62,541 nt of DNA from an uncultured Bacteroidota bacterium (GTDB taxonomy: Bacteria > Bacteroidota > Bacteroidia > UKL13-3), in contig CAILJQ010000115.1 in NCBI GenBank assembly GCA_903834625.1, positions 1 through 62,541 of the forward strand, in the 5' to 3' direction. Both the position numbers and the translations under genes were made by a program. The notes under the pieces are model-generated. The model had not been told where the DNA came from and made no database searches. It saw only the letters and a list, made by a program, of their open reading frames with translations. Shown here in pieces: positions 6,829 through 18,281 of this stretch (its first letter is position 1; every line of letters starts with the position of its first letter).

Positions 6829-8229
6829 ATGGATGGAAATGATTTTTTGGGGGAAGAAGTTACGAGTAACGTGCAACGTTATGAGAAAATGATCCGAAAC
6901 AAAACGCGGGATTATTTTGATGCAGAGGCTATTGAAGGAATTATTGACTACTACATTCAAACTGAGAAATTAAAAAGGGCATTAGAGGCAGTGGAGTTTG
7001 GGAAGGAGATGTACCCTATGAATGTAAACTTTTGGATCAAAAATGCTGAAATCTTAATTATTCTTGAAAAGTTTGAGGAGGCAATGGTAGAGTTGGATAA
7101 AGCGGAATTGTATGAACCATATAATCCAGACCTATTTATTTTAAAGGGTGAAATCTGTTTACATAATTTTAACCACGCCGAAGCAGAGGAGTATTTTCAG
7201 AAGGCTTTACTACATACTGATGAAAGACTAGATATGCTTTTTGAGATTGCTTATGTATATGATGATAATGGCTTGTTTCTTCAAGCATCACAATATTTTA
7301 AGCAAATTATAGAGCAAGAGCCAGAGTTAGAGCAAGCTTACTATGAATTGGCGCATTGTTACGATATGTTGCTACAATATGATGATGCACTTAAATACCT
7401 TAATGTGCTTATAGACATTGATCCATACAATGTGGGCGCATGGTATAATTTAGGTGTTACATATGGCAAAATGGAAAAGCATACAGAAGCAATTGATGCG
7501 TTTGATTATTGTCTTGCCATTGAAGAGGAATACACAGTTGCTCGGTTTAATAAGGCCAATGCTTTGGTTGAATTAGATAGGTTTGAGGATGCCATTGTAG
7601 AGTACCTTGAAGTAATTAAACAAGAAGGAGGCGATAGTATTTCTTATTGCAATTTGGCTGGTTGCTATGAGCGATTGGGTAGGATTTCTGAGGCAAGACA
7701 ACAATACAAAAAAGCAGCCCAATTAAACCCAAATCTAGCCGATGCTTGGTTTGGAATAGGTGTTACACACGATAAAGAGGGACAATACAAAGAAGCCCTG
7801 CAACACTTTAAACGCGCTTGTTTGCTTGAACCCGAAAATTGTGATTTCTTGTTGGTTTTAGCCGAGTGTGAATACAAGTTGGGGTTTATTAAGGAAGCAG
7901 AAGATATTTATGCCAAACTTATTGAGTTAGACCCTGGACTCATGGAGGCATATTTGGACTGGTCGTATGTAAAATACAAAGAAGGCCACCTGCATGAAGC
8001 TGTTGAATTGCTTATGGAAGGAATGATTTTAGATCCATTATGTCACCAATATTATTACCGATTGGTGGTATACTTATATGAGCTTGGCAAAACCAATGAG
8101 GCGCAAGGCTATTTAGAAAAAGGACTTCAGTTATTCTTCTCTGATTATTTTCTCATTTTTGAAATTGCACCTAAACTACGTAAAGTACAGGCAATTACAG
8201 ATGCGATTGAGGCCCATAGACCTAACTAA
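6829..8229 (+). CDS. Tetratricopeptide repeat protein
   Basis: The 466-aa protein consists almost wholly of TPR units of about 34 residues. Examples are YYELAHCYDMLLQYDDALKY, AWYNLGVTYGKMEKHTEAID and AWFGIGVTHDKEGQYKEALQ. I count roughly eleven or twelve helix pairs from residue 30 to the end. There is no signal peptide or membrane span, so it is expected to be a cytoplasmic scaffold. A short-leader promoter lies directly upstream. Neither sequence nor neighbours give a specific partner. Confidence 0.88.
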   Translation: MDGNDFLGEEVTSNVQRYEKMIRNKTRDYFDAEAIEGIIDYYIQTEKLKRALEAVEFGKEMYPMNVNFWIKNAEILIILEKFEEAMVELDKAELYEPYNPDLFILKGEICLHNFNHAEAEEYFQKALLHTDERLDMLFEIAYVYDDNGLFLQASQYFKQIIEQEPELEQAYYELAHCYDMLLQYDDALKYLNVLIDIDPYNVGAWYNLGVTYGKMEKHTEAIDAFDYCLAIEEEYTVARFNKANALVELDRFEDAIVEYLEVIKQEGGDSISYCNLAGCYERLGRISEARQQYKKAAQLNPNLADAWFGIGVTHDKEGQYKEALQHFKRACLLEPENCDFLLVLAECEYKLGFIKEAEDIYAKLIELDPGLMEAYLDWSYVKYKEGHLHEAVELLMEGMILDPLCHQYYYRLVVYLYELGKTNEAQGYLEKGLQLFFSDYFLIFEIAPKLRKVQAITDAIEAHRPN

Positions 8230-8269
8230 ATTTGCTTTCCTTTTTTTTTCGTTTTATTTATACAAAGAA

Positions 8270-8302
8270 TACCTTTGCTGGGCTTAAGGCGTAGTAGCTT
8301 TG
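8270..8302 (+). promoter_or_regulatory. Possible -7 boxes upstream of comA
   Basis: Two TAnnTTTG matches, TACCTTTG (8270-8277) and TAGCTTTG (8295-8302), precede the start at 8323. The TTG inside the first could serve as -33 for the second, but with only 17 bp spacing. Confidence 0.35.
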
Positions 8303-8322
8303 GGCATTAATTTTCGTGAAAA

Positions 8323-9114
8323 ATGAAGAACTTTAAATTAAAACAAATTCCAGACCGTCCGGCAAAACCTAGAGATAAAGGATTAACCATGGTAATGGAC
8401 AAAGGGTTGAGCATTAGAGAAGCTGAAGACATGATTTCTGTAAGTGGAGAATACACAGATATTGTTAAACTTGGTTTTGGTACATCATATGTAACTCCAA
8501 GACTGGAGGAGAAAATTAAGCTATACCACGATAATGGTATCATTGTTTATTTTGGTGGTACTTTGTTTGAGGCATACATTGTAAGGAACCAATTTGAAGA
8601 TTATATCAGGTTATTAGAAAAATATGGCATGTTGCATGCAGAAATTTCTGATGGTTCTATAGAATTACCGCATGATTTAAAGTTAGATTATATTTCTAAA
8701 TTAAGTAAACATGTAACCGTTTTAAGTGAGGTTGGAAGTAAAGATGTAGAAAAAATTATTCCACCTTACCAATGGATAGAGTTGATGCAAACAGAATTAG
8801 ATGCAGGTGCATGGAAAGTAATTGCAGAAGCCAGAGAGGCAGGAAATGTGGGTGTTTACAGAAGTAGTGGAGAAGTAAGAGAAGGATTGGTTCAAGAAAT
8901 TCTTACCAAAATTCCAGAGGAGAAAATAATTTGGGAAGCACCGCAAAAGGCACAACAAACCTACTTTATTAAATTAGTTGGGGCCAATGTAAACATGGGA
9001 AATATTGCGCCAAATGATATCATTCCTTTAGAGACCTTGAGACTTGGATTGAGAAGTGATACATTCACATTCCATCTGGGAAAAGGAGCAAAATACCTTG
9101 TAAAGAAAAAGTAA
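8323..9114 (+). CDS. comA: Phosphosulfolactate synthase (ComA family)
   Basis: The 263-aa protein matches ComA over its full length: KPRDKGLTMVMDKGL near residue 16, VKLGFGTSYV near 49, GIIVYFGGTLFE near 73, HAEISDGSIELP near 108 and LSEVGSKD near 138. ComA adds sulfite to phosphoenolpyruvate, giving (2R)-phospho-3-sulfolactate in a TIM-barrel fold. In methanogens this is the first step to coenzyme M. Bacteroidota do not make coenzyme M, so here it may feed sulfolactate or cysteate for sulfonolipids or another sulfonate. The phosphatase and dehydrogenase of the archaeal pathway (ComB, ComC) are absent from the window. The end product is unresolved. Confidence 0.88.
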   Translation: MKNFKLKQIPDRPAKPRDKGLTMVMDKGLSIREAEDMISVSGEYTDIVKLGFGTSYVTPRLEEKIKLYHDNGIIVYFGGTLFEAYIVRNQFEDYIRLLEKYGMLHAEISDGSIELPHDLKLDYISKLSKHVTVLSEVGSKDVEKIIPPYQWIELMQTELDAGAWKVIAEAREAGNVGVYRSSGEVREGLVQEILTKIPEEKIIWEAPQKAQQTYFIKLVGANVNMGNIAPNDIIPLETLRLGLRSDTFTFHLGKGAKYLVKKK

Positions 9115-9145
9115 TTTATTTTATTGCCTTTAAACAAAAGAAAGA

Positions 9146-9595
9146 ATGAGCATACAAGAACAAATTAATGCAGATGTGATTACAGCCATGAAGGCCAAAG
9201 ATGAAGTAAGTTTAAGGGCTTTACGTGGGTTAAAATCTGCCTTATTACTCGCTGCAAGTGAACCTGGCGCCAATGGGTTGGTTTCTGATGAAGCTGCCTT
9301 GAAAATATTCCAGAAACTAGCCAAGCAAAGGAAAGAGTCGCTTGAAATTTACCTTCAAAACAAACGCGAAGATTTGGCCAAGGTAGAACAAGAGGAATTA
9401 ACCGTGATTGAAAAGTATCTTCCAAAACAAATGGGGGAAGACGAGATAAAAACTATTTTGCAAGGAGTGATTGCAGAAGCTGGTGCAAGTTCTGCTGCTG
9501 ATTTTGGTAGAATGATGCCATTGGCAATGAAAGCCCTTGCTGGCAAGGCTGATGGTAAAATTATTTCTGCCGTTTTAAAGCAATTGTTGGGATAA
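9146..9595 (+). CDS. yqeY: GatB/YqeY domain-containing protein
   Basis: The 149-aa protein is a stand-alone YqeY protein, homologous to the C-terminal helical tail of GatB in the tRNA amidotransferase. Typical stretches are AMKAKDEVSLRALRGLKSA near residue 14, KIFQKLAKQRKES near 53, EKYLPKQM near 92, and the C-terminal GRMMPLAMKALAGKADG. Its specific role is not established; a tRNA-linked function is presumed from GatB. It follows comA by 31 bp on the same strand and may be read from the same transcript. Confidence 0.9.
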   Translation: MSIQEQINADVITAMKAKDEVSLRALRGLKSALLLAASEPGANGLVSDEAALKIFQKLAKQRKESLEIYLQNKREDLAKVEQEELTVIEKYLPKQMGEDEIKTILQGVIAEAGASSAADFGRMMPLAMKALAGKADGKIISAVLKQLLG

Positions 9596-9668
9596 TTTCC
9601 AACTAGGTATTTGCCATTTTTCTACATACATTTTAGTATCAGATTTTTATTGCCTAAAAAGACCCAAA

Positions 9669-10385
9669 ATGACCGACCCAAACGAAGAAGAAAGAATAAA
9701 GAAAGCATTTCAAAAGAAAGATTGGCCAGAGATAAAAGTAAGTGATAGTTGGGCTACATTTAAAATCATGGCCGAGTTTGTTGAAGGCTTTGAGAAGATG
9801 AGTAAGATTGGCCCTTGTGTGTCTATTTTTGGTTCGGCCCGAACCAAAAGCGACCATAAATATTACCTGTTGGCAGAGGAAATTGCCAAGAAGCTTGTAA
9901 ATGCAGGTTTTGGGGTGATTACTGGAGGTGGACCAGGTATTATGGAGGCTGGTAATAAAGGGGCATTTGAGGCAGGAGGGAAGTCGGTAGGTTTAGGTAT
10001 TGAATTACCTTTTGAACAATTCTTTAACCGTTACGTTGACCGTGATAAAAACATCAATTTCGATTACTTTTTTGTTAGGAAAGTGATGTTTGTGAAATAT
10101 GCCCAGGGCTTTATTGCCATGCCCGGAGGCTTTGGTACGTTAGATGAATTGTTTGAATCTTTAACATTAATTCAAACCCATAAAGTTGCTCAATTTCCGG
10201 TGGTGTTGGTAGGCAGTGAATTTTGGGGTGGACTCATTGATTGGATCAAACAGGTGATGCTTGAGAAGGAAAAAAATATCAGTGCAGATGACATGTTTTT
10301 ATTTAAAGTGGTAGATTCTGCAGATGATGCAGTGAACTACATTTTAGATTATTATGCTGATATGAGTATCCGTCCGAATTTTTAA
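9669..10385 (+). CDS. LOG-family nucleotide-processing protein (TIGR00730 type)
   Basis: The 238-aa protein has the Rossmann-like LOG fold with FGSARTKSD near residue 56, GGGPGIMEAGNKGA near 85 and the signature PGGFGTLDE near 151. LOG proteins are nucleotide 5'-monophosphate phosphoribohydrolases, best known for releasing free cytokinins from riboside monophosphates; bacterial members often act on AMP or similar nucleotides. There is no signal peptide. It forms part of a plus-strand series with comA and yqeY. A 23-bp inverted repeat sits inside its coding region at 9827-9849. Confidence 0.88.
   Translation: MTDPNEEERIKKAFQKKDWPEIKVSDSWATFKIMAEFVEGFEKMSKIGPCVSIFGSARTKSDHKYYLLAEEIAKKLVNAGFGVITGGGPGIMEAGNKGAFEAGGKSVGLGIELPFEQFFNRYVDRDKNINFDYFFVRKVMFVKYAQGFIAMPGGFGTLDELFESLTLIQTHKVAQFPVVLVGSEFWGGLIDWIKQVMLEKEKNISADDMFLFKVVDSADDAVNYILDYYADMSIRPNF
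9827..9849. repeat. 23-bp perfect inverted repeat with GGTTCGG core
   Basis: TTTTGGTTCGG, one C, then CCGAACCAAAA form an exact 11-bp inverted repeat inside the LOG-family gene. It has the same GGTTC/GAACC arms as the palindrome seen at other sites. Confidence 0.9.
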
Positions 10386-12797: not shown

Positions 12798-13163
12798 CTA
12801 ATTAGAACAACTGCAAATTCTAATAAACTCCATTCCTTTCCTTGCTTTTATGCAAGAATAACTTTGATCTAATTTCCATTTATTGGGGTAATCACTTGTA
12901 TTACTGCTTGATTTTAACACAATATACTTGTCTTGGACTTCCCATGTGCCTTTAACTTCTACTATTTTTTTGGGGTTGGTTTCGTTGTAGTATACAAATG
13001 TGTTGTCATCGTTTAGCTTTAGTTCTAGTACTGAATTGTGGCCATTTGTTGGTTGTTTTGCCTTTTGTCCGGATGAATAGGTGCCATGCGTTGGATTGGA
13101 TTTTGGCTCGCCTGCAAATGCTTGGGTGCAGACAAAAAGAAAGCTAATAAATAGGTATTTCAT
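12798..13163 (-). CDS. Small secreted protein of unknown function
   Basis: From the ATG at 13163 the product is 121 aa with a clear signal peptide (MKYLFISFLFVCTQAFAG). A longer frame from 13235 would put 24 charged residues before it, so I prefer the shorter start. The mature part has a 'LNDDNTFVYYNE ... VKGTWEVQDKYIVLKS' pattern, like the small lipocalin or NlpE-type barrels that end in a W-E-x-x-D-K-Y-I turn. The family is not recognised with certainty. Two cysteines lie at the C-terminus (CSC). It is divergent from the MbnP-like gene, with 144 bp between. Confidence 0.6.
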   Translation of the reverse strand: MKYLFISFLFVCTQAFAGEPKSNPTHGTYSSGQKAKQPTNGHNSVLELKLNDDNTFVYYNETNPKKIVEVKGTWEVQDKYIVLKSSSNTSDYPNKWKLDQSYSCIKARKGMEFIRICSCSN

Positions 13164-13307
13164 AGGTTTTATTATTGAATGAAGGTAGCGGTAATTTTGT
13201 TTTAAAATTGTCATATTCCTTTTTGTGTTTATCATTAGGTAACTATTTTATTTGATAGATTAAACTATTCCTGATTTTTGATATCAAAGCCAGAATTGTT
13301 TTATTTC

Positions 13308-13988
13308 ATGCGTACCAACAAATTGTTATGTTTTTTTCTCTTCCAGATTGCTTTTATGGCTTTGCCATTAAAATCAATTGGGCAGGTAAAACTATCTTTT
13401 GTTCCTACAATTGGTGGCGCTGAAATTTCTCTTGATAAAGAATATCTGTTAAAGGAATTGGGTAAAGTAACATTCACTAAACTTAAGTTTTATTTTGGCT
13501 TAGCAGGTGATACCTCCTCCAAAAGTTATTTCCTCATAGACCTTGAAAAAAAGAGTAGTTGTTTAGTAGAATTTCCACTTCAAAAAAATAGTCTGAATAA
13601 TGAATTTGCCTTTTGGTGTGGAGTAGATAGTTTTACCAATACCTCTGGAGTATACATGGGGGCTTTGGATCCATTGAATGGAATGTATTGGACATGGCAA
13701 AGTGGCTATATAGGTATAAAATTAGAAGGGCAAATTCGTTCAATGAATGGAGATTCTGTTTCGTTTGAATATCATTTAGGGGGTTATCAAAACCCTTTTT
13801 TGGTTTGTTATCCTGTAGCATTTAAAAACACAAAAAGTAGCGACCTTCTAGTAGGGTTGGATTTGGGAAGGTTTATATCGTTTGCATATCAAAATTTCCC
13901 TAAAAAAGTTATGACGCCTGGCCAGGATGCCTATTTATTAGGGAAAATATTTTCAGAATCTTTTTACTTATTGGATAATGAAAAATAG
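13308..13988 (+). CDS. mbnP: MbnP-like copper-binding family protein
   Basis: From ATG 13308 the product is 226 aa with a signal peptide ending near SIGQ (residue 26); an upstream TTG at 13278 is less likely. The mature protein shows the MbnP pattern: VKLSFVPTIGG, a KLKFYFG strand, LIDLEK and the hallmark GMYWTWQSGYIGIKLEG near residues 125-141. In Methylosinus trichosporium, the partner enzyme MbnH converts a Trp of MbnP to kynurenine, and MbnP then binds copper. The next gene here is an MbnH-like diheme protein whose start overlaps this stop by 11 bp. Family call is from pattern recall; copper binding and Trp modification are inferred. Confidence 0.75.
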   Translation: MRTNKLLCFFLFQIAFMALPLKSIGQVKLSFVPTIGGAEISLDKEYLLKELGKVTFTKLKFYFGLAGDTSSKSYFLIDLEKKSSCLVEFPLQKNSLNNEFAFWCGVDSFTNTSGVYMGALDPLNGMYWTWQSGYIGIKLEGQIRSMNGDSVSFEYHLGGYQNPFLVCYPVAFKNTKSSDLLVGLDLGRFISFAYQNFPKKVMTPGQDAYLLGKIFSESFYLLDNEK

Positions 13989-14988
13989 AGGTTTGCTCTT
14001 ATTTATTGGGGTTGTTTGTTTAATGAGTTTTATCGTTAAAGATACCTATCAAATTCCAAAGGCTTGGCCTGAACCAATATATCCCATTGGTAAAAATGAA
14101 CTTACAATTAACAAAGTTTATTTAGGAAGAATATTGTTTTACGACCCAATTTTATCGGTCAATCACACTGTTTCTTGCGCAAGTTGTCATTCTCAATTTA
14201 ATGCCTTTACCCATGCCGACCATGCACTGAGCCATGGTATATATGATAGTATAGGAACAAGGAATTCACCAACCTTAATGAATTTGGCTTGGCAACCCTA
14301 TTTTATGTGGGATGGTGCCATCAATCATTTAGACATGCAAGCCTTGGCACCTATAAGTCATCCCAAAGAAATGGGTGAAAGCTTAAATCATGTGCTTCAA
14401 AAATTGGGCGCTTCAAAAAGATATAAGAGTTTGTTTTATAAGGCTTGGAAGGATTCAATTCCTACTACTGAAACACTACTTAAATCGCTGTCATCGTTTA
14501 TGCTTACTTTGGTAAGTAATCAATCTAAATACGACAGTGTGCAATTGGGTTTAGTTGCATTCACAGATCAAGAGCAAAGAGGTTATGCCTTATTTAAGAA
14601 ACATTGCAATAGTTGTCATACAGAGCCACTATTTACTAATTATCAATTTGAGGCAAATGGCATTAAGGTAAATGCTCATCTTAACGACTTTGGAAGGTAT
14701 GCAATTACCCATCATCCAAAAGATTCATTTAAATTTAAAACCCCCACTTTAAGAAACGTTGAATATTCTTTTCCTTATATGCATGATGGAAGGTTTGAAT
14801 CATTGAATGAGGTGATACAATTTTATGCTTCTTCTTCCTCTATTGGTGACAAAACAAAAGGTCGAACACTACATTTAGATGCTAAAGAAAAAGTGGACCT
14901 GCATGTTTTTTTGCTCACTTTAACCGATAAACAATTTTTGTTCAACCGCTCCTATGGGTATCCTATGGAGTTGAATACAAAAGAATAA
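13978..14988 (+). CDS. mbnH: Diheme cytochrome c peroxidase, MauG/MbnH-like
   Basis: The 336-aa protein has a signal anchor (residues 5-21) and two c-type heme sites, CASCH (67-71) and CNSCH (~210-214). It also has the family blocks GRILFYDPILS near 50, RNSPTLMNLAW near 94, FMWDGAINHLDMQALAPI near 106, FKTPTLRNVEYSFPYMHDGRF near 250. Members either reduce peroxide or, like MauG and MbnH, oxidise tryptophans of a partner protein. It overlaps the upstream MbnP-like gene by 11 bp, which argues for translational coupling and a shared task. It should act in the periplasm after heme attachment. Peroxidase versus MbnH activity cannot be settled from sequence alone. Confidence 0.88.
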   Translation: MKNRGLLLFIGVVCLMSFIVKDTYQIPKAWPEPIYPIGKNELTINKVYLGRILFYDPILSVNHTVSCASCHSQFNAFTHADHALSHGIYDSIGTRNSPTLMNLAWQPYFMWDGAINHLDMQALAPISHPKEMGESLNHVLQKLGASKRYKSLFYKAWKDSIPTTETLLKSLSSFMLTLVSNQSKYDSVQLGLVAFTDQEQRGYALFKKHCNSCHTEPLFTNYQFEANGIKVNAHLNDFGRYAITHHPKDSFKFKTPTLRNVEYSFPYMHDGRFESLNEVIQFYASSSSIGDKTKGRTLHLDAKEKVDLHVFLLTLTDKQFLFNRSYGYPMELNTKE

Positions 14989-15028
14989 TTTACTCTTTAT
15001 AACACCTAAAATAAATACAAATAAAATA

Positions 15029-16393
15029 ATGAAAAAATCTATCCTACTCTGCACATTTGGCTTATTGGCTTTGTGTTCATTTGCTCAAACCAATCCTGCT
15101 ATTACAAGCTGGATTCAAAACACCACAGGCATTAAAGGCCGACATTATGTAAAGAATAACAGCACTGCAATTAACGACAATGACTCGGCTAATGTATTAG
15201 GAGTGTATTATTCTGCTACATCTGTTTATATAAGAGCAAATGGGGTTCCTGGTTATGTAACTGGACCATTTTTAGACGGTAACCCATCCATTACAACCAG
15301 TCAGAATGCCATCTTTAAATTTCCTTTGACCCCAGTTAAAAATACGGGAACAGCAACAGCTACTACTGGTGGCAATATTGGAATTTTTATCAATGGTGTT
15401 GCTTTGTTTGATTACCGTGATGGTGTTTCTTGGCAGAATTCATCAAACAGTTTAAAAGGCGGGCCATTAGGCGGAACGGGCGACAATGTTTGGAATAGAG
15501 ATGCAGTGGTTGCTGAGCGAGGTGGTTTTGATTGTGCAAAGGGACATCCAGCGATGGGAAATTACCACCATCATCAAAATCCTAGTGCATTTAAATTAGA
15601 TTTAACTGTCATATCTACTGTTTGTAATTTGTATGATGCAGATGGATTGTATGTGATAGATAGTAGCAAACATTCGCCACTCATAGGCTTTGCCTATGAT
15701 GGATTTCCAATATATGGAGCATATGCTTATAAGAATGTAGATGGAACTGGAGGCATTGTGCGCATGAAATCTAGTTATACTTTACGAAGCATTACCCAAA
15801 GAAACACCTATTTTAATGGTAACACTGTAACTGCAGGTCCGGTTGTGAGTACAACCTATCCATTGGGATATTTTAGAGAAGATTATCAGTATACTGCGCC
15901 AACTGCTGCAAATCCAGATTACTTGGATGAACACAATGGAAGATTTTGTATAACTCCAGAATACCCAAATGGCATTTATTGTTATTTTGCTACCGTTGAT
16001 GCCAATTGGAATTCTGCCTATCCTTATGCTGTAGGTCCCACTTTTTATGGTATTAGAAGCAGTGCAAAAGTTACCAGTATTACAGAATCTGTTACAAGGT
16101 ATATGCCAAGTACAACAGCTATTTCTGAGAAGGGAAAAGAGGCGTTAACCTTTAACGTTTTTCCAAATCCAGGTAATGATATATTGGCTATTCAAGCAGA
16201 TGGATTGCAACAAAACAATTTGTTGGTTGAACTATTTGACATGCAAGGAAGGTTATTAATAAGCAGCAATTTGTTTCAAGGTAGTACCATCACCTATTTA
16301 GATACAAGAGGTTTATACAGTGGTGAATATATATTAAGGCTGAGTAACGCACAAACAGTAGTTAGCAAAAAAGTAATTATTGCAAAAGACTAA
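15029..16393 (+). CDS. YHYH domain protein with T9SS sorting domain
   Basis: The 454-aa protein has a signal peptide (to about residue 19) and then the YHYH domain: a His-rich GHPAMGNYHHHQNPSAF block near residues 170-186, GFAYDGFPIYGAYAY near 229 and EHNGRFCITPEYPNGIYCYFAT near 304-325. Residues ~370-454 form a type A T9SS C-terminal sorting domain (FNVFPNPGN ... GLYSGEYILRL), so the protein is probably exported to the surface. YHYH proteins have no settled function; the His cluster suggests metal binding. It lies 40 bp after the diheme gene on the same strand. Its stop overlaps the convergent gene by 4 bp. Confidence 0.85.
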   Translation: MKKSILLCTFGLLALCSFAQTNPAITSWIQNTTGIKGRHYVKNNSTAINDNDSANVLGVYYSATSVYIRANGVPGYVTGPFLDGNPSITTSQNAIFKFPLTPVKNTGTATATTGGNIGIFINGVALFDYRDGVSWQNSSNSLKGGPLGGTGDNVWNRDAVVAERGGFDCAKGHPAMGNYHHHQNPSAFKLDLTVISTVCNLYDADGLYVIDSSKHSPLIGFAYDGFPIYGAYAYKNVDGTGGIVRMKSSYTLRSITQRNTYFNGNTVTAGPVVSTTYPLGYFREDYQYTAPTAANPDYLDEHNGRFCITPEYPNGIYCYFATVDANWNSAYPYAVGPTFYGIRSSAKVTSITESVTRYMPSTTAISEKGKEALTFNVFPNPGNDILAIQADGLQQNNLLVELFDMQGRLLISSNLFQGSTITYLDTRGLYSGEYILRLSNAQTVVSKKVIIAKD

Positions 16394-17064
16394 TTATTAA
16401 AATACCTTTTTATGGCTACCACATGTGATAGTATGACCAATGGAACTATAACTGTTGGTAGCCATATAAAAGGGAATTGCGAAACAGCTATATTAGGTTG
16501 GTTCAGACCGAATTGTTGAAAGGGTGTAGGCAAAGAGAGTACCGCAATACTAACAATTGTTAAAACAAGGAAAAGGCAAATGATGTTCCAAATGACCATA
16601 GGTTTTCCTATAGAGGAAGATTGTTTTTTGGCCCCAAATATTATTATCCCAAGTGCACTAATACCCGAAAGTATATCAAAATTTAATCCTTCAAAGGTCA
16701 TTTCTTTGGGAACCATTTTTTGGATGAAAAGTAAGTACAGTCCAATTTCAACAGGAATCCTTACTACATGAATAGGTAACAGGTGTTTTGTTTCTATAGT
16801 ATCTAACCATTTTCTACCAGATGGGCTTCCAAGCAGGTAAATAAAAATTGCCAGATTGGGTAATAGAATTAGAATGGGTCGTGGAGGCGTGCTGTTAGTT
16901 TGTTCATAGAAACCACTCCATGCTAGCAAAGCTTGAGTAATAGTGATGAACAAAGTAAGCCCAAGAATTTTGATACTTTTGTTGCTTGCTTTATATATCC
17001 AACCAATACAAAAAAATGTAATAAGGATAAAAAGAATAGGGGTTATTACTTCAATAGATTTCAT
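16390..17064 (-). CDS. Hypothetical multi-pass membrane protein
   Basis: The 224-aa protein has about seven hydrophobic helices (from residue 7 to ~216) and no catalytic motif that I recognise. The central part reads LLGSPSGRKWLDTIETKHLLPIH..., with several Arg/Lys in loops. It follows the DUF1801 gene by 3 bp on the minus strand, so the two form a pair. This pair interrupts the plus-strand metal neighbourhood between the YHYH gene and the HupE/UreJ gene. No function is assigned. Confidence 0.7.
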   Translation of the reverse strand: MKSIEVITPILFILITFFCIGWIYKASNKSIKILGLTLFITITQALLAWSGFYEQTNSTPPRPILILLPNLAIFIYLLGSPSGRKWLDTIETKHLLPIHVVRIPVEIGLYLLFIQKMVPKEMTFEGLNFDILSGISALGIIIFGAKKQSSSIGKPMVIWNIICLFLVLTIVSIAVLSLPTPFQQFGLNQPNIAVSQFPFIWLPTVIVPLVILSHVVAIKRYFNN

Positions 17065-17067
17065 TTT

Positions 17068-17478
17068 TTATTCCTTATTTATGGTTTCAATCCAAAGGCG
17101 GAATATTTGGGTTAAACCGCTTTGAAAACTTGAGAGGTTTGCCTCTTTTGAAATAACAATCATTTTTCTTGAATCAGGAAAGTTGCCTTGTAACAATCCT
17201 GTTGGATCGTTAATTCTTGCGCCATTTGGGAAGATTAATCTCAATTCATCTTTTTTCACAAGATTAATTACACATATATCTCTTTTATATTCTTTGGGGT
17301 TAAAAGGTGGCATTTCGCCTGCATAAAAAAAGGAGGGAGAATTCCATTTCACCTGCTCTTGTATGTTTGGGTCAACCCCTAAGATAATTGTTCTTAGCCC
17401 ATTTATCATTGGTTTCATTGGATGAGATAAGGCATTCATGTAATCCGTAATCGTTATGTTTGAATTTTTTGTTGCCAT
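17068..17478 (-). CDS. DUF1801 domain-containing protein
   Basis: The 136-aa cytoplasmic protein matches the DUF1801 (YdhG-like) fold: VDPNIQEQVKWNSPSFFYAGE near residues 52-72, then KDELRLIFPNGA and DSRKMIVISKEA. These are small proteins of unknown biochemical activity. A TACTTTTG -7 box lies 27 bp upstream of the start. It is probably co-transcribed with the downstream membrane protein gene, three bases away. Confidence 0.8.
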   Translation of the reverse strand: MATKNSNITITDYMNALSHPMKPMINGLRTIILGVDPNIQEQVKWNSPSFFYAGEMPPFNPKEYKRDICVINLVKKDELRLIFPNGARINDPTGLLQGNFPDSRKMIVISKEANLSSFQSGLTQIFRLWIETINKE

Positions 17479-17504
17479 AGAAGTTGGGGAGATTTGACCT
17501 AAAA

Positions 17505-17512
17505 CAAAAGTA
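17505..17512 (-). promoter_or_regulatory. -7 box for DUF1801/membrane protein pair
   Basis: Minus-strand TACTTTTG matches TAnnTTTG, 27 bp before the ATG at 17478. No good -33 TTG is seen. Confidence 0.4.
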
Positions 17513-17588
17513 TCAGATTTTCGTCAGAATTAGACTCATTGACAATTGTGGTTAAACTTTTGCGTTTTTGAAATATCACACTAATACT

Positions 17589-17663
17589 ATGAACAAAAAT
17601 AATTTTTACATCTTCAGGGCATCAGTAATCATTGCCTTATTGGTAATGGCCCTGGCATATTGA
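17589..17663 (+). CDS. Possible 24-aa single-span membrane peptide
   Basis: A short frame from ATG 17589 to TGA encodes 24 residues. It starts MNKNN, has one Arg at position 10, and then a hydrophobic stretch ASVIIALLVMALAY up to the stop. That is the size and shape of a small membrane peptide. It could equally be the remnant of a signal sequence, because the reading frame closes right after the hydrophobic core. It lies 52 bp before the HupE/UreJ gene. Translation is not shown. Confidence 0.3.
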   Translation: MNKNNFYIFRASVIIALLVMALAY

Positions 17664-17714
17664 TCCTAATCAAGGAGCATTTTGCCTAATGATTAATTCC
17701 ACTATTTTTGAGCC

Positions 17715-18281
17715 GTGGAGGAAATTAGGCTATATATATTGCTTGGATTTGAGCATGTGTTTCCATTTGGTTCAGACCACGTGCTGTTTATTGTTAGCTT
17801 ATTCCTTTTTAAAAGTAATTGGAAAGACTTGTTGGCGCAGTCTGTTGTATTCACCCTTGCCCACAGTATCAGTTTGTTATTAGCCCTATTAGGCTTACCC
17901 TTTCCAAGCTCACTTTGGGTTGAACCAATAATTGCTTTATCCATTGTTTATACTTCGTTAGAGAACGTATTTCCTAAGTATTTTGTATTGAACCGATTGG
18001 CCATAGTTGGAATATTTGGCTTATTCCATGGGTTAGGATTTGCGGGAGTTATTCAGCAATTATTGGGTGGTTCTGAAAGTTTATTTATTCCTTTATTTTC
18101 ATTTAACCTCGGCATAGAAGCTGCACAACTATTTGTACTGCTTCTATTATGGGTTATGATACATACAAGCGGCTTATCCAAATTAACTTTGTATCAAGAA
18201 AAACTTAGCAAAGCAATGTCATTGGGCATTGGTTTGATTGCCAGTTATTGGTTTTTAGAAAGAATTGGACATTTGCTTTAA
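17715..18281 (+). CDS. HupE/UreJ family membrane permease
   Basis: The 188-aa protein has about six membrane spans and the family signature GFEHVFPFGSDHVLFIVSLF near residues 11-30, then AHSISLLLALLG near 49 and GLFHGLGFAG near 112. HupE/UreJ proteins are metal permeases, mostly tied to nickel or cobalt, and some have been proposed for copper. The start is GTG (an in-frame TGA at 17709 excludes anything further upstream); TTG codons slightly downstream are alternatives. Its neighbours suggest the same metal pathway as the MbnP/MbnH/YHYH genes. The metal is not determined. Confidence 0.82.
   Translation: MEEIRLYILLGFEHVFPFGSDHVLFIVSLFLFKSNWKDLLAQSVVFTLAHSISLLLALLGLPFPSSLWVEPIIALSIVYTSLENVFPKYFVLNRLAIVGIFGLFHGLGFAGVIQQLLGGSESLFIPLFSFNLGIEAAQLFVLLLLWVMIHTSGLSKLTLYQEKLSKAMSLGIGLIASYWFLERIGHLL

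Follow-up and report, generated by a model that had tools for sequence, protein, structure and literature searches.

Three genes, encoding an MbnP-family protein, an MbnH/MauG-like diheme enzyme and a His-rich YHYH-domain protein, form a real conserved cassette that is well supported as a genetic unit; the set is widespread and apparently unstudied. Its best explanation, to which we give a probability of about 0.6, is an extracytoplasmic copper-handling module in which kynurenine would be formed on MbnP by the MbnH-like enzyme. No described system of the same composition was found in the open literature searched, whose coverage did not include the main MbnP papers, so its novelty is provisional.

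Matches to PF20243, the MbnP family, were found in 155 of the 196 Bacteroidota genomes searched. To our knowledge Bacteroidota make no methanobactin. The cassette links MbnP with a putative surface YHYH protein and often with a regulator of the metal-responsive type. This yields a concrete testable hypothesis for both proteins, covering MbnP in Bacteroidota and the function of the YHYH domain alike.

Organization of the locus

The window, that is, the whole stretch of 62,541 nucleotides from an uncultured Bacteroidota bacterium that was analyzed, contains the ORFs listed in Table 1. The original prediction had described an MbnP-like ORF with a GMYWTWQSGYI motif that overlaps a diheme ORF by 11 bp, a YHYH ORF with a T9SS tail 40 bp further on, and a HupE ORF separated from the latter by two minus-strand ORFs. 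This anatomy was confirmed: the overlap spans positions 13978–13988, the two CxxCH motifs of the diheme protein are at residues 67–71 and 210–214, the C-terminal tail of the YHYH protein matches TIGR04183 (5e-12) in addition to PF18962, and the HupE ORF lies 1321 bp beyond the YHYH ORF. At the Pfam level, profile searches bore out all proposed family names (MbnP, MauG/CCP, YHYH and HupE/UreJ).

Table 1. Open reading frames of the locus, with positions in the window and E-values of Pfam matches.
ORF	Position	Strand	Start, domains and remarks
MbnP-family protein	13308..13988	+	ATG start; signal peptide; PF20243 (1.9e-26)
MbnH/MauG-like diheme enzyme	13978..14988	+	PF03150, CCP_MauG (2.4e-51)
YHYH-domain protein	15029..16393	+	signal peptide; PF14240 (7.4e-59); PF18962 (6.7e-12)
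Membrane protein	16390..17064	-	no accepted family; outside the set
DUF1801 protein	17068..17478	-	PF08818 (1.8e-11); outside the set
HupE/UreJ_2 membrane protein	17715..18281	+	GTG start; PF13795, HupE_UreJ_2 (1.6e-37)

An in-frame TTG is located at position 13278, 5' of the ATG of the MbnP ORF. Neither of the two minus-strand ORFs had a homolog in 60 related loci. A gene for a small secreted protein (12798–13235, minus strand) is divergent from the MbnP gene; its product scores 17.2 bits against the N-terminal domain of NlpE (cut-off 22), and a homolog occupies the same place in one related locus (L106). The NlpE family is associated with E. coli copper homeostasis.

Conservation of the cassette

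Conservation was analyzed in two partly overlapping sets of loci. The first comprised 61 MbnP loci (59 matches of the window MbnP, one paralog from the same genome and the window itself). The diheme gene adjoins the MbnP gene in 59 of these loci, mostly with an overlap of a few bases; a YHYH gene is present in 43, and several of the loci lacking it stop at a contig edge. The second set was derived from a scan of named genomes with the YHYH protein, in which at least 566 relatives were confirmed and 80 loci were kept. Both MbnP and MbnH genes occur in 59 of the 80 loci, and MbnP in 53 of the 63 that have at least 3 kb of upstream sequence. By our own estimate, with about two to three MbnP genes in a 3-Mb genome, chance would place MbnP in roughly one of 80 YHYH flanks. 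The original prediction was open to refutation by the lack of any conserved association in other genomes; that of MbnP, MbnH and YHYH is kept there.

The YHYH gene is mostly found downstream of MbnH, and in other loci upstream of MbnP. At least three switches to the upstream side are seen on a FastTree tree of 103 diheme proteins, and since the linkage stayed intact, adjacency has been preserved through rearrangement. The pairwise divergences of the three proteins are correlated (0.82 for MbnP and MbnH, 0.52 for MbnH and YHYH, 0.41 for MbnP and YHYH), each correlation exceeding all 500 shuffles, and some correlation would be given by shared species ancestry alone. MbnP is the fastest-changing member, with a mean identity of 33% versus 54% and 59% for the other two.

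MbnP and its candidate copper site

The window MbnP scores 93.6 bits against PF20243 (cut-off 27) and 22.7 bits against TIGR04052, the NCBI equivalog MbnP_like_WxW; the cut-off of 140 for the latter is not reached, and therefore we do not claim the protein as that equivalog. Its sequence had no match among PDB chains, either in a single-sequence search (to E 1) or with two profiles (to E 10). An AlphaFold2 model built from 52 homologs (pLDDT 88.8) was then compared with the PDB using Foldseek, and the only hits with E ≤ 0.001 were chains A–F of 7L6G, the MbnP of Methylosinus trichosporium (2e-6 to 2e-5, probability 1.00). The moderate TM-scores (0.48–0.56) and an identity of 16–17% in the structural match indicate that the window protein is a distant member.

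Five residues (W128, W130, M126, D107 and D121) are conserved in all 115 homologs, H156 in 114 and M202 in 102. Position 75, a variable column, is Phe in the window protein versus His, the commonest residue, in 73 of 115 homologs. A 2021 study of MbnP reportedly showed conversion of the first Trp of W-x-W to kynurenine and coordination of Cu(I) through a single His and a single Met. Residues of all these types are present in the window MbnP, the Met being M126 or M202. W128-x-W130, M126, M202 and H156 are a candidate kynurenine/Cu(I) site.

The same genome harbors two further pairs. In one of them (L163, contig C9) the MbnP paralog has no W-x-W motif (NMQWPEPLGGGYHF), while the diheme neighbor is kept and retains the Tyr region discussed below; this pair may represent a non-kynurenine branch, and the loss of the motif indicates that W-x-W is not trivially conserved across the MbnP family. 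The other MbnP-MbnH pair (L061, positions 7865–9746, contig C270) is lipoprotein-like and has W-x-W; it is followed by the gene of a long surface protein, not of YHYH. A search of plasmids for bridging MbnP sequences found two Deinococcus matches only.

The YHYH protein

The family name of the third protein stands, with 199 bits against PF14240 (cut-off 25), but the motif itself reads Y-H-H-H here (residues 179–182), not YHYH. Y179, H180 and H182 (Y-H-x-H) are present in all 131 sequences compared; H173, D168, D224 and D300 are likewise invariant, as is W155, and H215 is found in 130 of 131. The C-terminal sorting domain is of type A (PF18962, TIGR04183), as in T9SS cargo, and a T9SS is encoded in the genome, where its protein SprA was identified over the cut-off in two contig-end pieces. 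Delivery of the YHYH protein to the cell surface by T9SS is therefore plausible.

AlphaFold modelled the region around residues 150–215 poorly, and the YHYH region had no structural match; since matches were confined to the T9SS domain and to generic beta sandwiches, no function can be assigned from the fold. A literature search for a tie between YHYH and copper found no relevant paper. The domain is known also from diatoms and phage tails (PMC11992049, PMC7824862). A possible but somewhat improbable reading is that the YHYH protein acts as a secreted hydrolase that depends on a metal, with MbnP/MbnH supplying this metal or maturing the protein. In a survey of phages, YHYH domains were predicted to have a His-triad/Asp metal site and to act as hydrolases (PMC7824862), three His and at least three Asp are invariant in the 131 sequences, and the gene retained its adjacency to the MbnP-MbnH pair while changing sides at least three times; however, the published hydrolase idea is itself a prediction, and the structural comparison matched the T9SS tail alone. 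Quite unlikely, in our estimate, is a further version in which YHYH would be a new copper protein, its His cluster (or W155) being loaded or oxidatively modified by MbnP/MbnH, and the cassette would mature a secreted metalloenzyme. A search for a second YHYH-like protein elsewhere in the window genome gave essentially T9SS-tail matches only.

Genes linked to the cassette

When neighboring genes were clustered, 21 loci proved to have an ECF sigma factor and 18 a small anchored protein; these genes lie immediately upstream of MbnP, in many cases with an overlap of 4 bp. Among the 80 YHYH loci from named genomes, about one third have these genes (ECF sigma factor in 25, small sensor-like protein in 29); a multicopper oxidase is present in 15 and an AhpC/TSA protein in 11. 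The sigma factor has the domains PF04542 (8e-16) and PF08281 (1e-10), and the linked multicopper oxidase matches PF07732 (7e-30) and has a T9SS tail. Six of the small proteins were scanned: two exceeded the cut-off of Metal_resist PF13801 (3.7e-9 and 2.3e-8), two matched weakly and two had no accepted match. As the clearest members of the family match Metal_resist PF13801/LTXXQ, the small proteins appear to be related to periplasmic heavy-metal sensors; they are not proven sensors. The linked sensor-like and sigma genes suggest a metal role for the cassette, and the homology of MbnP together with the linked multicopper oxidases points to copper as the metal.

The window locus has no sigma factor, sensor-like protein, multicopper oxidase or peroxiredoxin, and a search of its genome for a close copy of the linked multicopper oxidase gave essentially T9SS-tail matches only. 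Three other loci (L128, L200 and L102) are large clusters in which two T9SS multicopper oxidases flank YHYH together with a sulfatase-like protein; some of them also have AhpC close by. In Fluviicola chungangensis MAH-3 (L241) the genes for the sigma factor, the sensor-like protein, MbnP, MbnH and two YHYH proteins stand in a row.

These neighbors also bear on copper defense instead of supply, a possible but somewhat improbable explanation: excess metal would induce the module, MbnP would sequester Cu(I), and the multicopper oxidase and peroxiredoxin of the larger clusters would detoxify. The upstream ECF sigma factor and the Metal_resist-related protein do resemble regulators of metal resistance, and a multicopper oxidase and AhpC/TSA are present in some loci. 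However, no efflux pump genes were recognized among the recurrent neighbors, and the functional analogs of methanotrophs, CorA and MopE, are copper-repressed and made when copper is scarce (PMC3912023).

The HupE gene

The original prediction combined all four genes into one system with HupE as the metal importer. The linkage of MbnP, MbnH and YHYH is conserved, but HupE does not share it: it occurs at only two of the 80 YHYH loci (L186 and L215, within an extended cluster) and is rare at MbnP loci too. Four loci of the same genus (L063, L067, L068 and L069), likewise bordered by malic enzyme on the upstream side and by IF-2 on the downstream side, have no HupE between YHYH and IF-2. In addition, the two opposite-strand genes between YHYH and HupE in the window make a shared transcript unlikely. 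HupE as a core member of the cassette is rejected on the basis of gene neighborhoods, and its role as importer is not well supported.

On the other hand, HupE lies on the same strand as the cassette, 1.3 kb downstream, and in a phylogenetic tree it falls into one clade (support 100/99) with all seven HupE proteins, from seven other genomes, whose genes adjoin those for Lcl_C and YHYH-like proteins, standing apart from the compared HupE of genus relatives. There is thus support for the weaker claim of an association between this HupE clade and YHYH-domain proteins in other genomes. Given its rarity at YHYH loci and the neighbors of its clade, we consider HupE an optional neighbor drawn from a wider YHYH neighborhood and not a fourth core part; a single four-gene system in which HupE would import the metal is unlikely. 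In a separate recurring group (L121–L126 and L075), HupE is accompanied by an Lcl_C protein and by a T9SS protein that is YHYH-like, about 540 residues long and weakly matched by PF14240.

The diheme enzyme

Both CxxCH motifs of the diheme protein are present in all 118 relatives. Its best NCBIfam match is TIGR04039, "MbnH family di-heme enzyme" (8e-58), at a score of 196 bits, which does not reach the cut-off of 363. When a family profile was compared with the PDB, MbnH (6E1C) ranked first (4e-60), followed by cytochrome c peroxidases (CCPs; 1.7e-57 and weaker), whereas the single-sequence search placed the CCP 3O5C first (4.7e-39 versus 2e-34 for MbnH). Since the latter favors CCP, scores alone are not decisive for the class of the enzyme, and the ligand residue decides. 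Tyr283, conserved in all 118 relatives, aligns with Tyr of MbnH 6E1C and with Met of the CCPs 3O5C and 1IQC. A Tyr heme ligand is kept in all MauGs, while CCPs have Met or His instead (PMC7567364); Tyr283 is accordingly the predicted MauG-type axial ligand. That the protein is an ordinary peroxide-reducing CCP beside an unrelated MbnP-like protein, an outcome under which the original prediction would have failed, is highly improbable: despite the first rank of 3O5C in the single-sequence search, this reading is rejected on account of Tyr283, and the ranking with the family profile and the correlated divergence of MbnP and MbnH also oppose it.

Proposed mechanism and comparison with known systems

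In the copper-handling module that we favor, the MbnH-like enzyme would be exported to the periplasm, with one heme ligated by Tyr as in MauG and MbnH, and its two-heme center would oxidize W128, the first Trp of W-x-W in MbnP, to kynurenine. The modified MbnP might then bind a single Cu(I) through H156 and a conserved Met, either M126 or M202. The YHYH protein would reach the cell surface through T9SS; it may carry a metal site formed by its invariant His/Asp cluster and act as the surface partner of MbnP, capturing, using or receiving the metal. Many relatives, although not the window, have the upstream ECF sigma factor and sensor-related protein, which probably make expression of the operon metal-responsive. 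HupE would be an optional extra. The purpose of the module may be copper acquisition, metalation of secreted cuproenzymes or defense.

The closest known counterpart is MbnP/MbnH of methanotrophs (GenProp0940; TIGR04052/TIGR04039; 7L6G and 6E1C), whose genes are likewise adjacent and which share with the window pair the MbnP fold, the W-x-W motif with conserved His and Met, and a diheme enzyme with a Tyr ligand. In contrast to these, the window pair is below both TIGRFAM cut-offs, no methanobactin genes were seen at the locus, and the neighbor is a T9SS-type YHYH protein instead of a TonB-dependent transporter. In CorA/CorB and MopE/SACCP the gene of a secreted Cu(I) protein with a kynurenine site has a diheme MauG/CCP-like gene as its partner (PMC3912023), an arrangement that is predicted for the window pair as well; MbnP shows no marked sequence similarity to MopE or CorA (PMC3621798). 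The CorA site comprises two His and kynurenine, whereas the window MbnP has only one nearly invariant His.

MauG acts on methylamine dehydrogenase, forming a cross-linked quinone. The window diheme protein resembles it in the diheme fold, the Tyr ligand and the modification of Trp in a partner protein, which is predicted here; unlike in the MauG system, no mau genes were seen at the locus. Operons with an ECF sigma factor and a periplasmic metal sensor (CnrX/CnrH type) differ in that no efflux pump genes were recognized here, that sensing is putative and that the window locus is without the sigma/sensor pair, but about one third of the related loci have a similar pair upstream.
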